A stretch of DNA of 64,000 nt from Flavobacterium galactosidilyticum (GTDB taxonomy: Bacteria; Bacteroidota; Bacteroidia; Flavobacteriales; Flavobacteriaceae). Below the pieces are notes generated by a model. That model did no database searches and was not told where the DNA came from. It saw only the letters and a program-made list of their open reading frames with translations. This document shows, piece after piece, positions 33,539 to 38,525 of this stretch. The stretch lies in contig NZ_CP087135.1 in assembly GCF_020911945.1 (NCBI RefSeq), positions 1,116,001 through 1,180,000 of the forward strand, given 5' to 3'. Every line of letters starts with the position of its first letter. The first letter of the stretch is position 1. A program made the translations under genes and the position numbers.

Positions 33539-34903
33539 TTAGTTATTTATAAGTGTTTTTAATTCTCCTTTTGATTTGATTAATTGTATTTCAGCCAGTT
33601 TGTACTCTAATATTGCTGATGTATAGTTGTTTTGCGCCTCAGTCAATGCGTTTTCAGCATCTAACAAATCAGTTAATGACGCCAATCCTTGTACATAATT
33701 GTTTCTGGTATTATCTAAAACCTCTTTGGCTAATTGTGCATTTTCTTTTTGATTGTTAATAGTAATCAAACTATTGTCAATTTGCGTTTTAGCATTTGCA
33801 AAAGAAAGATCAAGTGCTAATTTAGTATCATCCAGATCTTCTTTTATAGTTTTTAAGTTGATGTCTGCTTGCCTAACTTTAGCTCTTGTTCCAAAACCTG
33901 TAAAAATAGGCACTCTAAGGTTTAAACCAATTGAAGAGAAATCAGACCAGTATACGCCATCAGAAGGTTTTGCACCAATAGGCATTTTAGGACCTTGACC
34001 AATGTAGTTGTAACCAGCACTCAGTGATAATGTTGGGTAATATCCAGCTTCAATTGACTTTTTCTGGTAATTTAAAAGTTCTTCTTGTTTTTTCAGAAGT
34101 AAAAATTCACTTCTGTTAGCCGTATTTGGAACTTCAGATAAAGATTGAGGACTTACTTCAAATGCAGTTTGTGGAATCTCGATTTGAGTTTCTATAGGCA
34201 TTCCCATATAAAATTTCAAAGCATTTTCTTGAATTTGTACAGCGTTCAATACTTGTTGACGCATGGTGTTGATATTTGAAATCTTAACTAAAATACGATC
34301 TAAGTCGATTTTTTTAGCTAAACCATTGTCATATTGACCTTTGATAATATTTTTTACTTTACTAGTAGTTTTATAAGTGCTGTCAATAACAATTAGTTTT
34401 TGGCGTTGCACATATACTTGATAATAATTATTAGCAACACGCTCAATTACTTGCTCTTCTGTCAATTGATTGTTGATTTGGTAAAACTCTCTAGTCGATT
34501 TTGCTGCTTTTAAGCCCGTAAAAACGGATTGATCAAATATGGCTTGTGTCAAAGAAACTCCTGCAGTTGAACTCCATTTTTGTCCAAAAGCTGCTTGGAT
34601 AACTGTTCCTGGCTGTCCAAAAGCGGATCCGTCAATTACAGTTGTTTGCAATACAGGATTATAGGTTAAGCTTCCGTTTGCTGAAATTTGAGGTAAAGCT
34701 CTAGAACGAACTTCTTGTATTTGATATTCGCTATTTTCTACTTTTAATTGTGCTTTTTTAGCATCAGCTTTATTTTCTAAAGCATAAGTGATCGCTTCTT
34801 TTAGCGTAAGCGTTTTTACTGGACCTGTTGCAGTAGCACTCAAGTTTTGAGATTGCGCTGCTAAGCCAATTGTCAGCATCGCTATTAAAATTATTCTCTT
34901 CAT
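33539..34903 (-). CDS. tolC: TolC-family outer-membrane efflux protein
   Basis: 454 residues with a signal peptide ending AAQS. Two repeats of long coiled-coil helices typical of outer-membrane factors, with the LTLKEAITYALENKADAKKA start and NYVQGLASLTDLLDAENALTEAQ near the end. It forms the exit duct of the efflux system. Its ATG overlaps the tetR stop by one base (TAATG), so translation is coupled to the regulator gene. Confidence 0.94.
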   Translation of the reverse strand: MKRIILIAMLTIGLAAQSQNLSATATGPVKTLTLKEAITYALENKADAKKAQLKVENSEYQIQEVRSRALPQISANGSLTYNPVLQTTVIDGSAFGQPGTVIQAAFGQKWSSTAGVSLTQAIFDQSVFTGLKAAKSTREFYQINNQLTEEQVIERVANNYYQVYVQRQKLIVIDSTYKTTSKVKNIIKGQYDNGLAKKIDLDRILVKISNINTMRQQVLNAVQIQENALKFYMGMPIETQIEIPQTAFEVSPQSLSEVPNTANRSEFLLLKKQEELLNYQKKSIEAGYYPTLSLSAGYNYIGQGPKMPIGAKPSDGVYWSDFSSIGLNLRVPIFTGFGTRAKVRQADINLKTIKEDLDDTKLALDLSFANAKTQIDNSLITINNQKENAQLAKEVLDNTRNNYVQGLASLTDLLDAENALTEAQNNYTSAILEYKLAEIQLIKSKGELKTLINN

Positions 34904-35499
34904 TATATAGTGTAGTTAAGTAATTGATTTTCTAATTCGATTATTCCAGCGGGAGTTGCCATGGCTCTGGTGTGATATTCTAAAACTTCTAGTTCAATTT
35001 TTTGGCCTTCTTTTTCAGAACTTATGTTTTCTCTAATGGTGAAGACAAGATTGTAATAAAATTGAATATAGTTTTTGACATTTATGTTTTCTCGATATAA
35101 TCCCTGTTGGATCCCTTTTATTATATTTTGTTCAAATGTGGTGTTACATTCATTTATTTCCCTATCCATTACTGTTTGGTATATTTCGGGATAGTGTTTT
35201 TTTAATTGATAAACTGGAGAATTGTCGGATGATTTAAACATCTCTTTAAACATTTTTCTAATTTCAAAATTCTCTTCGATGGCATTGTAGTTTTTAGAAA
35301 TTATAGTATTAATAATTTCATGTATTTCCTTGTGAACTGTTGCGGTGCTCTCTTCAATAAGCAACTCTTTATTGCAAAAATATTTATAAATTGTTTTTTT
35401 TGAAATACTCATTTCTCCCGCAATATCATCCATCGTTACACTTTTAAAACCTAGTTTTAAAAACATATCGCTTGCTTTATTTATAATTTTTTCTTTCAT
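34903..35499 (-). CDS. TetR-family transcriptional regulator of the efflux operon
   Basis: 198 residues. N-terminal helix-turn-helix (about 1-48) with GFKSVTMDDIAGEMSISKKTIYKYF, which is diagnostic of TetR, followed by a variable helical ligand domain. First gene of the efflux operon. A 28-bp dyad directly above its -7 box (35588-35615) is the likely autoregulatory operator. The same dyad precedes yceI at 37381, so it probably controls that gene as well. Confidence 0.93.
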   Translation of the reverse strand: MKEKIINKASDMFLKLGFKSVTMDDIAGEMSISKKTIYKYFCNKELLIEESTATVHKEIHEIINTIISKNYNAIEENFEIRKMFKEMFKSSDNSPVYQLKKHYPEIYQTVMDREINECNTTFEQNIIKGIQQGLYRENINVKNYIQFYYNLVFTIRENISSEKEGQKIELEVLEYHTRAMATPAGIIELENQLLNYTI

Positions 35500-35575
35500 C
35501 TTTTTATCCTGAAATACTATCAGTGTTTTTTAATAGAGTTAAAATTGATGGGCAAATGATTTATTAATTGCGATG

Positions 35576-35615
35576 CAAATGTACAAAGGAAACTTTTAAC
35601 ACTAAAATAGTTTCC
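35576..35615 (-). promoter_or_regulatory. Promoter and TetR-type operator of the efflux operon
   Basis: Minus-strand -7 box TACATTTG (35583-35576), four bases, then a 28-bp imperfect dyad (35588-35615) with arms GGAAACT and AGTTTCC. The dyad occupies the spacer and -33 region, a repressor position. The same geometry (same -7 octamer, 4-bp gap, 28-bp dyad) occurs before yceI. Confidence 0.7.
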
Positions 35616-35654
35616 ATGATGTTTAGAATTATTTAACAGTAAGTAATTATGACT

Positions 35655-35815
35655 CTATACGCTAAATTCTAAATTAGCAATCAGTTTAATATCTTGACCT
35701 AGCGCTAAACCACCAGTTTGATTGAAAGAATTAAAGGTAAGGCCAAAGTCTTTTCTATTAATTTTTCCTGTAACTTCAAAAGCTGCCTTTTGATCACCAT
35801 TAAAGTCATTGATAC
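35655..35815 (-). pseudogene. yceI: 3' part of a yceI gene split by a cassette
   Basis: About 53 codons encoding GINDFNGDQKAAFEVTGKIN followed by RKDFGLTFNSF and ending LIANLEFSV, the C-terminal quarter of a YceI-like lipocalin-fold protein. The N-terminal three quarters lie at 36947-37307 on the same strand. The open frame extends artificially into the inserted attC-like DNA. Joining G36947 to G35815 restores a continuous frame, giving AEFI-GINDF across the junction and a protein of about 172 residues, the usual YceI length. Confidence 0.85.
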
Positions 35816-35943
35816 CGGTTCGGGGCTTTGCGATGGTGGGGCAATCGAAGCACAAATCTTCAATTTTGCACTAAAGTTCAACCGAAGAACAACCGTTGAA
35901 CTTTGCAGTTTCGCCCCACTATTGCAAAACCCTTGTTAGCGGC
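35816..35943 (-). other. attC-like imperfect palindrome at the cassette end
   Basis: Outer arms 35823-35842 and 35913-35932 match at 17 of 20 positions when one is reverse-complemented, with transitions that still allow G-T pairs. The inner arms AAAGTTCAAC (35873-35882) and GTTGAACTTT (35895-35904) are perfect. The inverse core is GTTAGCGGC on the plus strand at 35935-35943. Integron attC sites have conserved ends and poorly conserved but foldable interiors, as here. Confidence 0.7.
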
Positions 35944-35950
35944 TGGCATT

Positions 35951-36280
35951 TTAGTGTGCTGCTGATTTTGAGAAAAAATTCATTACGATAACTCCTGTCA
36001 CAATTAAAATAATTCCAATAATTGCTGGAATGTCTAACGATTGCTTAAATACCACAACCGAAATTATAGCTGTCAAGACAATTCCTAAACCACCCCAAAT
36101 TGCATAAGCTATTCCCAAAGGAATGGATTTTAAAGCTTGCGACAAAAAGAAAAAGCAAGCAATATATGCCACAATTGTTATCGCTGTTGGCAATAATTTT
36201 GAAAAACCGTCTGATGCTTTCATAAAGCTCGAACCTACAACTTCAAGTACGATTGCTAATGATAAAAATAAATATTTCAT
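35951..36280 (-). CDS. Small multidrug resistance (SMR) efflux protein
   Basis: 109 residues forming four transmembrane helices, the standard SMR length. The essential membrane glutamate is Glu13 in AIVLEVVGSSFMK, and the YAIWGGLGIV loop-helix matches the EmrE/QacE branch. It exports cationic compounds as a proton-coupled dimer. It lies in the cassette inserted in yceI, downstream of the Crp-type gene on the same strand (71-base gap), and ends 7 bases before the attC-like site. Confidence 0.93.
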   Translation of the reverse strand: MKYLFLSLAIVLEVVGSSFMKASDGFSKLLPTAITIVAYIACFFFLSQALKSIPLGIAYAIWGGLGIVLTAIISVVVFKQSLDIPAIIGIILIVTGVIVMNFFSKSAAH

Positions 36281-36351
36281 TGTTCTTTTGTTTTAACTGA
36301 TGCAAAGAAACAAAAATTAAAAAGTGCTTTTTTTGACAAATGTCAAAATCG

Positions 36352-36912
36352 TTATTTCTTTCTAATACGGCTCAATGTTTCTTGCGAAATACCCAAATAA
36401 GAAGCAATATGTCCTAAAGAAATTCTTTGCAAAGCTTCGGGTTGGTTTTTCAAAAGCCAATGATAATGCTGTTCTGCGGTATGTGTTTGTAATAAAAAAG
36501 AACGTTCCTCTAAAATTTTGCAATATTCTTCTGCCATTTTTCTACCAATCGTATTCATTTCCTGCGATGATTTGTAGAAACTTTCAAGGTCATTGCTTGA
36601 GATATAATATAAAGTGGTGTCTTCTAAAAACTGAATGTTTTCAATTGAAGGTTGGCTAAAAAATAATGGCATTACTGAACCTAAAATTCCGCTCTCAAAA
36701 CCAAACCAAACATTAATTTCTCTTTCATTGATATTATAAAACGAACGAACAAGCCCTTTTTCAATTACGAATAAATTTGAAACAATTTGTCCTTCTTTGA
36801 GCAAAAAATCGCCTTTTTGTTTTATCAGACTTTTAATTTTTTCGTTAAGTTCTGTTTCGATTTCAGAGGTCAGATTTCCGTATTTTTTAAGTTGTTTTAT
36901 GAGAGGGTTCAT
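36352..36912 (-). CDS. Crp/Fnr-family transcriptional regulator
   Basis: 186 residues. The N-terminal cyclic-nucleotide-binding-type beta roll (about 25-120; FLLKEGQIVSNLFVIEKGLVRSFY) is followed by a C-terminal helix-turn-helix (ISLGHIASYLGISQETLSRIRKK). The domain lacks an obvious cAMP-contact signature, as is common in Bacteroidota members. Its ATG overlaps the stop codon of the truncated yceI reading frame (ATGA), so it is probably translated by coupling from yceI. It is the first gene of the inserted cassette and may regulate the SMR gene after it. Confidence 0.9.
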   Translation of the reverse strand: MNPLIKQLKKYGNLTSEIETELNEKIKSLIKQKGDFLLKEGQIVSNLFVIEKGLVRSFYNINEREINVWFGFESGILGSVMPLFFSQPSIENIQFLEDTTLYYISSNDLESFYKSSQEMNTIGRKMAEEYCKILEERSFLLQTHTAEQHYHWLLKNQPEALQRISLGHIASYLGISQETLSRIRKK

Positions 36913-37307
36913 TCTTTGTACGGTGTTGGTTTATGCTTGCCGCTAACTATAAACTCTGCATCAAGCTCAACTGCTTTAGTTACGTTTTTGATCGTTAAAT
37001 TACCTTTCAGGAAATTGATGTTTTTATTTATTTTCTCGAATGATGTTGACTTAAACTGAATAATTGGATATTCATTCACATCAAATAAGTCATTCATTTT
37101 CAAATGAGAATCCATTTGTTCCAATTTTGCGTCTTTGTTATTTACATCTAATGAAAATTCGATGGAAGCATCTGCTATCTCATTATTTTCAATGTCAATA
37201 TGACCGTTGAATTTATTTATTGTTCCTGCTAAATAAGCTATTATTGAATGTCTCATTTTAATAAGAACATCAGATTGACTGGAATCAATTGTCCATTTCG
37301 TTTTCAT
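36909..37307 (-). pseudogene. yceI: 5' part of the split yceI gene
   Basis: Encodes 132 residues: 119 of genuine YceI sequence (KWTIDSSQSDVLIKMRHSII, then FLKGNLTIKNVTKAVELDAEFI) followed by 13 residues read from the inserted cassette. YceI-like proteins bind isoprenoid or amphipathic molecules in a lipocalin-type barrel. No signal peptide, so a cytoplasmic version. It still has an intact promoter/operator (37369-37408), so it can drive the two cassette genes; the last four bases overlap the Crp-type start. Confidence 0.85.
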
Positions 37308-37368
37308 AATTTGGTTATTGTGGTGAGAATTTAATTGACTTCCCCTTCAGTAGTATCAGTCAATAAAA

Positions 37369-37408
37369 AAATTTTGTGCAAATGTAAATCGGAAACTTTG
37401 AATACCAA
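37369..37408 (-). promoter_or_regulatory. yceI promoter with the same operator as the efflux operon
   Basis: Minus-strand -7 box TACATTTG (37376-37369), a 4-base gap, then a 28-bp dyad (37381-37408) with arms GGAAACTT and AAGTTTCC. Layout, length and arms match the site before tetR at 35576-35615. Confidence 0.7.
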
Positions 37409-37550
37409 AGAAGTTTCCTTTGTATTTTGTTTTATTTAACATTTGTGAAAGTTTAAAATTTAACTTTATTGAGTTTCTTTGTACTGTATATGTCAAAAAG
37501 ACTGGTTTAGCTACCTTTTTTTCTAACTTGAACTTTAAACAAAAAAAATA

Positions 37551-38525
37551 ATGCATACCATTTCTCAGTATCAAAAATTTCTTGCCGATTATTTACAGTC
37601 ACAATATGAATCGAAAGAGCCTAAAAATTTGTATGAACCCATTCATTATATTTTAGATTTAGGAGGCAAGCGAATTCGTCCAGTATTGACTTTAATGGCA
37701 GCCGAAATTTTTGATGCCGATTATAAAAAAGCATTGCCAGCTGCGCTAGCGGTTGAAGTTTTTCATAACTTTTCGCTGGTTCATGATGATATTATGGATG
37801 ATGCGCCACTGCGAAGAGGGAAAGAAACGGTGCATGAAAAATGGGATCTAAACACGGGTATTCTCTCTGGTGATGCAATGTTAATATTGGCTTATCAGTA
37901 TTTTGAGCAATACGAACCAGCTGTTTTTAGAGACTTAGCTAAGTTATTTAGTAAAACAGCACTGGAAGTTTGTGAAGGTCAACAATGGGATGTTGATTTT
38001 GAAAAACGCAATGATGTTACCATTCCGGAATACTTGAAGATGATTCAGTACAAGACTGCTGTTCTAGTTGCTGCGGCAATGAAAATGGGCGCTATTATCG
38101 CAGAAACGACCGTAGAGAACGCTGATTTAATTTATGATTTTGGATTAAATCTTGGTTTGGCTTTTCAATTACAGGATGATTATCTAGACGCTTTTGGTAA
38201 TCCAGAAACCTTTGGTAAACAAGTTGGCGGAGACATTATTGAAAATAAAAAAACGTATTTGTACTTAAAAGCTATGGCTTTTTCTAGTGAAAAAGACGCG
38301 ATGGAGTTAACGCACTTATTTTCTATTCATCCAGAAGATAGCTCCGATAAAATAGAGGTTGTAAAAGAGCTTTTTAACAGTTCAGGTGCTGCCAAAGCTA
38401 CTCAAGATGCTATACATGATTTTACTTTTCTAGCTTTTCAAACTTTGGACAAAATGAAAATTAGTGCCGATAAAAAAGAGATGTTGAGAAATTTTGGCGA
38501 GAACTTAATGGGAAGAAAAGTTTAA
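37551..38525 (+). CDS. Polyprenyl synthetase (trans-prenyltransferase)
   Basis: 324 residues. Both aspartate-rich motifs are present: DDIMD at 79-83, followed by APLRRG, and DDYLD at 209-213. It also has GGKRIRP near the start for diphosphate binding. It condenses isopentenyl diphosphate onto an allylic diphosphate to make geranylgeranyl or longer chains for quinones or carotenoids; chain length cannot be decided by reading. Plus strand, divergent from yceI, followed after 72 bases by a small conserved gene. Confidence 0.93.
   Translation: MHTISQYQKFLADYLQSQYESKEPKNLYEPIHYILDLGGKRIRPVLTLMAAEIFDADYKKALPAALAVEVFHNFSLVHDDIMDDAPLRRGKETVHEKWDLNTGILSGDAMLILAYQYFEQYEPAVFRDLAKLFSKTALEVCEGQQWDVDFEKRNDVTIPEYLKMIQYKTAVLVAAAMKMGAIIAETTVENADLIYDFGLNLGLAFQLQDDYLDAFGNPETFGKQVGGDIIENKKTYLYLKAMAFSSEKDAMELTHLFSIHPEDSSDKIEVVKELFNSSGAAKATQDAIHDFTFLAFQTLDKMKISADKKEMLRNFGENLMGRKV

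Follow-up and report, generated by a model that had tools for sequence, protein, structure and literature searches.

A cassette insertion in yceI of Flavobacterium galactosidilyticum and its probable source, a chromosomal integron whose recombinase is not an IntI

Sedentary chromosomal integrons of the Vibrio superintegron type contain tandem cassettes on one strand with homogeneous attC sites, AAC/GTT cores, complementarity between the ends of each cassette and an attI beside the recombinase, and insertions at secondary sites are known for them; at secondary sites, IntI and IntI1 use a GWT target triplet. Archaeal XerA resolves chromosome dimers at dif. In the available text of PMC7790495 and PMC4792948, it was through I2 that integron integrases became able to recombine single-stranded attC, and deletion of I2 inactivates IntI1. 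The former also describes I2 as necessary, as docking the extrahelical bases and as present in no other protein; the latter, as far as its text was available, allows that integrons could in theory use the ordinary double-strand route. The profile of Cury et al. is described in the accessible part of PMC8352920 as based on the additional domain. The passages available from the IntegronFinder 2.0 paper name a complete Salinibacter integron as new for Bacteroidetes, and those from reviews already list Bacteroidota among the phyla with integrons, kind unstated. The system described here has the DNA-side features of the Vibrio-type systems, including a probable secondary-site insertion, and its enzyme is not an IntI by profile score or domain make-up.

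The window, the whole stretch of 64,000 nucleotides that was analysed (1,116,001-1,180,000 of a 3.53-Mb genome in one contig, 99.99% complete), includes a yceI gene that a 1,131-bp insert splits with base precision (Table 1), as read over window positions 35000-38200. On the minus strand, the junctions read ...GAATTTATAG followed by TTAGCGGCAAGC at the start of the insert and CCCCGAACCG followed by GTATCAATGAC at its end. The boundary is ambiguous by one base, a G common to both junctions; there is no target duplication, and the yceI frame rejoins as AEFI-GINDF once 35816-36946 is taken out. The two halves match PF04264 at profile positions 1-111 and 109-150. Within the insert are a crp-like gene (cNMP-binding domain, PF00027) and an SMR-efflux gene (PF00893), both on the same strand as yceI, with one attC-type palindrome at the end and no transposase gene in the ORF reading. 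The truncated yceI ORF extends into the cassette to 36909 (132 aa), and its TGA stop codon and the ATG start codon of the crp-like gene overlap, so that co-transcription of the cassette genes with truncated yceI, possibly with translational coupling, is plausible.

Table 1. Features at the interrupted yceI locus, in window positions.
Feature	Position	Strand	Basis
5′ part of yceI	36947..37307	-	sequence reading, Pfam
Integrated gene cassette, TTAGCGGC...GAACCG, 1131 bp, target TATAG^GTATC	35816..36946	-	junctions and empty site
Crp/Fnr-like regulator gene, 186 aa	36352..36912	-	ORF, Pfam PF00027
SMR-family efflux pump gene, 109 aa	35951..36280	-	PF00893
attC site, R″ core CAGCCGCTAAC at 35935-35945	35814..35945	-	covariance model R1, 101.7 bits; fold
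3′ part of yceI	35655..35815	-	sequence reading, Pfam, empty site
tetR-family gene, within the 3′ flank of the empty-site comparison	34903..35499	-	ORF, Pfam

In 12 of the 13 orthologous loci examined in relatives, the separately searched flanks of the insert adjoin each other to the base, and the insertion in yceI is therefore precise and without duplication. The alignments often end 2-34 bases before the junction and were extended without gaps, contiguity being computed by arithmetic; those of L068 and L074 reach the junction on the 5′ side. The thirteenth locus (L090, about 72% identity) is one base off contiguity. The protein runs uninterrupted across the junction in eight of the ten loci tried, and YceI orthologue frames are 175-219 aa among the best 29 foreign matches versus 145 aa in the window genome. 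No cassette insertion in yceI was seen in the relatives examined, the nearest of which has 92% identity in the N-part of YceI. The clean split claimed in the original prediction is thus upheld by the junctions, the Pfam halves and the empty site, and the uninterrupted homologues whose lack would have spoken against the cassette reading do exist in relatives.

When reconstituted as single-stranded DNA, the cassette end folds at -34.6 and -36.9 kcal/mol for the two strands (z -6.0 and -6.5), and none of 200 shuffled sequences folds as well, so the attC-type fold foreseen for the rejoined palindrome is present. Further copies of the palindrome, also anticipated, are numerous: they occur in an array at another place in the genome, the best with 92% identity over 122 bp, and among the matches to the attC covariance model, R1. 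This model, whose training set lacked the window site and contained the 92%-identical array site, finds the window attC with an E value of 1.1e-19. The insertion reduced the R′ core of the window attC to G. An exact GTTAGCGGC at window position 2508 was rejected as a second site; it is a chance match inside a long ORF read as nuoN.

The array has at least 33 attC sites and adjoins a tyrosine recombinase gene; the integron lies at 203-243 kb of the same genome (G000), ~0.9 Mb from the yceI insert, in the order recombinase, attI, attC array, and relatives of the palindrome were found at 199-242 kb. As in Vibrio-type superintegrons, the cassettes are in tandem; each is bounded at G^TT and has at its end a palindromic attC, the cores of which are AAC/GTT. 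All 33 sites are on the minus strand at a median spacing of 767.5 bp and are 124-134 bp as modelled. In the whole genome (at most 150 candidates scored), R1 has 45 matches at E<=1, of which 33 are in the array, two beside copies of a 328-aa integrase (195 and 199 kb) and one in the window; the other nine are lone, weak or also beside copies of the 328-aa integrase. A stricter stem finder listed no site in the window on either strand; of five further stretches of the genome, four gave none and one gave 3. In 30 of 31 measurable array cassettes, the start is complementary to the core of its own attC at 6 or more of 8 positions, with a mean of 6.3 to its own attC versus 2.5 to that of the next cassette.

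R1 was built from 48 of the 51 non-redundant sites that a stem finder listed in this genome and relatives; a near-duplicate, a noise site and a longer site were excluded. Of the aligned cells, 91.4% pair, versus 53.7% when shuffled and 32-43% with partners slid, and 258 versus 84 cells are changed on both sides of the stem. Two weaker measures give 16 pairs with two-sided change versus a shuffled mean of 14.0, and 38 further pair types versus 39.3. Since the finder demanded pairing in the first 10 stem positions, the outer-stem pairing is partly built in, and the six inner pairs, which were no selection criterion, are the fairer evidence; each has 14-22 sequences changed on both sides. This covariation implies a selected fold and argues that the hairpin form matters. 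The outer arms are both 18 nt in 38 of the 48 sites, the central spacer is 1-nt/5-nt in 46, and the bottom strand folds better in 34, a weak strand preference. Unlike in Vibrio-type sites, the outer stem is symmetric, with an invariant A (48/48) facing C (45/48) in place of the conserved bulge, and such stems would fit an enzyme without I2.

The array recombinase has a tyrosine-recombinase catalytic core (PF00589, 130 bits), and alignment columns R204, H294, R297 and Y329, presumably the catalytic residues, are invariant. A search of the genome for an IntI-like integrase, proposed with the original prediction, thus has a partial answer: there is an array-linked tyrosine recombinase, but it is not an IntI. 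It scores 210.6 bits on TIGR02249 (IntI), for which the curated cut-off is 265, and unlike the Vibrio-type enzyme it has an N-terminal extension, of about 70 aa, and no I2 ‘additional domain’. The KDR to HxLRHS spacing is 58 residues versus 99 in IntI1 and seven other rows, which were called IntI by this spacing. Across the set, the patch II-III spacing is 55-66 residues in 73 of 81 rows and 99 in 8, class 1 IntI1 among them, and these eight constitute one 100% branch in a quick tree with SH-aLRT support only. When aligned to 2A3V, chain residues 182-245 are skipped against 22 query residues. A separate fold comparison barely covers the N-terminal extension.

With 230.8 on NF040815 (XerA; cut-off 220), the protein appears to be a XerA-like tyrosine recombinase and is most likely the enzyme of the array's cassettes; unlike archaeal XerA (NF040815; PDB 5hxy), it adjoins cassettes and an attI. 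A paralogue at 3.276 Mb, similar in layout by eye, scores 208.4 on NF040815, below the cut-off. The attC-linked Bacteroidota enzymes are not one clade in the tree. Nine of the 80 named loci (L187, L194, L233, L236, L237, L253, L259, L263 and L264) were dropped from the spacing and tree sets for stops or shortness, and of these L187, L194 and L236 have attC matches. The integrases in phage records are all distant (1,648, each with <60% identity). Relatives of the recombinase also occur in frames of 564-614 aa, with ~250 extra N-terminal residues, in L041, L042 and 11 further genomes.

The 3′ flanks of the recombinase genes share an alignable stretch of ~100 bp that contains a dyad and stops at ...AG^, beyond which they diverge; all 12 aligned flanks read ...AG^ where the alignment ends and 11 read AGTT, with most of the upstream block and dyad missing in G026 and the more distant loci G022, G027, G028 and G055 outside the alignment. 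The block is the attI expected beside an integron recombinase. Among 13 relatives inspected around recombinase homologues, 11 have attC downstream on the same strand, L065 has the divergent layout, and L060 has no attC beside the recombinase, its contig ending 1.1 kb further on. Among 80 named loci, the best of at least 592 matching stretches, 22 have a total of 71 R1 matches: 67 follow the recombinase on its own strand, 3 precede it on the opposite strand and 1 precedes it on the same strand. The array is thus mostly 3′ of the recombinase and on its strand, unlike in Vibrio-type superintegrons. Within these 80 loci, attC accompanies the recombinase in 22 of 41 from Bacteroidota. Where 1.5 kb or more of downstream sequence is present, 19 of 23 Bacteroidota loci have it (L215, L218 and L222 in the divergent layout alone); none of the 39 loci (538 kb) not assigned to Bacteroidota does.

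The system is widespread in Bacteroidota. In the genus, R1 matches at E<=1e-4 are present in 134 of 150 genomes, this one included, some with only one (at most 22 candidates were scored per genome), and the recombinase at E<=1e-50 in 84, with some copies broken by stops. Matches to attC were found in 81 of the 84 genomes with the recombinase versus 53 of the 66 without (Fisher p 0.0024), so attC sites also occur without an array-type recombinase in cis. Blocks resembling attI (dyad and ...AG^TT) with a cassette are present in the congeners L287, L290, L300, L304, L307, L309 and L315; we read them as dispersed platforms apart from the integrase, as tblastn of the 9-kb loci found no recombinase relative near them, except for a weak 31.6% match before the block in L315.

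Taken with the cognate array, the attI and the recombinase elsewhere in the genome, the single 3′ attC and the precise empty site argue that the insert is an integron cassette at a secondary site, as originally predicted, and the claim that the target is neither attI nor attC is borne out, with no attI block at the yceI site. Very probably, the insert is a cassette of a Bacteroidota-type chromosomal integron with a non-IntI recombinase that inserted off-target in yceI. It would have been excised as a circle by attC x attC recombination (G^TT), and the circle would have recombined through its single attC into the non-attI, non-attC site TATAG^GTATC, leaving one attC at the 3′ end and no target duplication. 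The insertion would most likely have been made by the array's own XerA-like recombinase, without an I2 helix and probably acting on folded single strands. The target triplet, G^GT, does not conform to GWT. Like the attG insertions of Loot et al. (2024, Nat Microbiol), as presented in papers that cite them, this event brought a cassette through a single attC into a part of the chromosome that is not an attI or attC; it differs from them in being natural, in its recombinase and in its G^GT target.

Two other actors could be considered. Insertion of cassettes at secondary sites is known for IntI enzymes (PMC2426708, in its available text; attG work as cited in the accessible parts of PMC12901181 and PMC12444791), and a canonical IntI, temporarily present on a plasmid, might have made the insertion, with the resident recombinase being a bystander phage- or Xer-like enzyme. 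We consider this improbable, given that an I2-less recombinase is linked to arrays and to an attI and that IntI is over the cut-off in none of the 150 genus genomes, this one included, though 134 have attC; in this search, 14 control genomes also scored below the cut-off and there was no positive control. By that absence, a canonical IntI is ruled out as the resident enzyme. Alternatively, the array-linked recombinase might serve attI only and the single-strand step be carried out by XerC/XerD or by the 328-aa integrase of IS91-like elements (so named by eye, from a neighbouring transposase at two copies), as there are 17 PF00589 matches in the genome, the 16 besides the array recombinase being candidate actors, and four of the five copies of the 328-aa integrase have attC-like sites beside them (G000 195.4, 199.3, 2171.7 and 2176.3 kb). 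At the two copies that were read, however, the AAC core of attC borders directly on the constant sequence TTTAGTTC, as would follow from insertion of the element into attC (the other two were only located), and the 328-aa enzyme and the XerC-like one each have a long branch of their own in the tree. The 328-aa integrases are for these reasons held less likely as the array enzyme, and the alternative as a whole seems slightly more improbable still than a visiting IntI.

That an ordinary transposon or an assembly join caused the split has nothing in its favour beyond the existence of an insert, and we give it almost no credence; it is contradicted by the empty site and the R1 score, and the insert has no transposase gene and no target duplication and lies in a single nearly complete contig.

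Insertion by the array recombinase at sites other than attI or attC could have further examples. From the best-scoring lists, not at random, 22 lone or near-lone attC sites were examined, the window site included. At 14 of them (L299 doubtful), a candidate start was found that mismatches at no more than 2 of 11 positions, and as seven of these 14 have an attI-like block, and hence are not random targets, no target consensus is claimed. Among the other lone sites of the window genome, L155 (TTTTAG^ATATT, candidate target G^AT) is the only clean further candidate and plausibly a second off-target cassette; its left flank gave no match for an empty-site comparison. In another genome, the lone cassette L322 reads ATATAAAG^GTGC, with G^GT as candidate target. 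L155 and L322 share AG before the cut with attI, too few cases for a motif. L156, L157 and L159 resemble decayed cassettes and no clean start was found. The right junction of L158 (G000 2.116 Mb), the flanks of which gave no match, coincides with the end of an IS-like sequence, and L158 was for this reason rejected as a second clean off-target cassette. Separately, in three genomes (L158 rc 6962 onward, L304 and L321), attC is joined precisely at its R′ core by an IS-like sequence and by a short element with inverted repeats (TCAGGCTGTGAAAAAA and close variants), which suggests an element that targets attC.

None of the titles and abstract openings from a literature search, which covered few subscription papers and no bioRxiv preprints, describes this cassette system with an I2-less recombinase. 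The system is not categorically new, since Bacteroidota are already listed with integrons and NCBI titles of the recombinase family contain the words integron integrase. On balance we favour a broader reading, in which it would be a second Bacteroidota integron lineage, with a recombinase of non-IntI origin that never had I2 and handles folded, bulge-less attC, and also a hidden source of tet(X), lnu(H), arr and perhaps blaVEB on plasmids of other bacteria and of off-target chromosomal seeding as in yceI. A widespread I2-less cassette system without the conserved attC bulge offers a natural comparison by which the requirement for I2 can be tested. Such systems would escape surveys in which the additional domain is the mark of an integron, and they also give context for resistance genes such as tet(X).

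On the Empedobacter brevis plasmid NZ_CP043636.1 (L184; 1564-3086 and 7888-10169), tet(X2), lnu(H) and arr-marR each have a cassette start on one side and an attC of the array type on the other, with complementarity at 9 of 9 core bases, and tet(X2) and lnu(H) there are cassettes of this type. The tet(X2) stretch matches 298 plasmid records at >=80% identity, 171 of them from Escherichia. Directly 3′ of a shortened recombinase relative, in one record read for each, are tet(X3) on an Acinetobacter indicus plasmid (L326, 4004-6146) and blaVEB-3 on a Klebsiella michiganensis plasmid (L327, 4142-5763). Both segments start at G^TT, where the first cassette at attI would be. After tet(X3), the attC match is weak and partial (15 bits) and R1 found none after blaVEB-3 in L327, so these are less sure as cassettes of this integron type. 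The crp-SMR cassette matches 29 plasmid records, none over 80% or more of its length. Relatives of the recombinase at E<=1e-45 are present in 50 Acinetobacter plasmid records. The Chryseobacterium plasmids NZ_CP041688.1 (L182) and NZ_CP094530.1 carry recombinases that are 67-68% identical, and on the former six attC matches follow the recombinase on the same strand.
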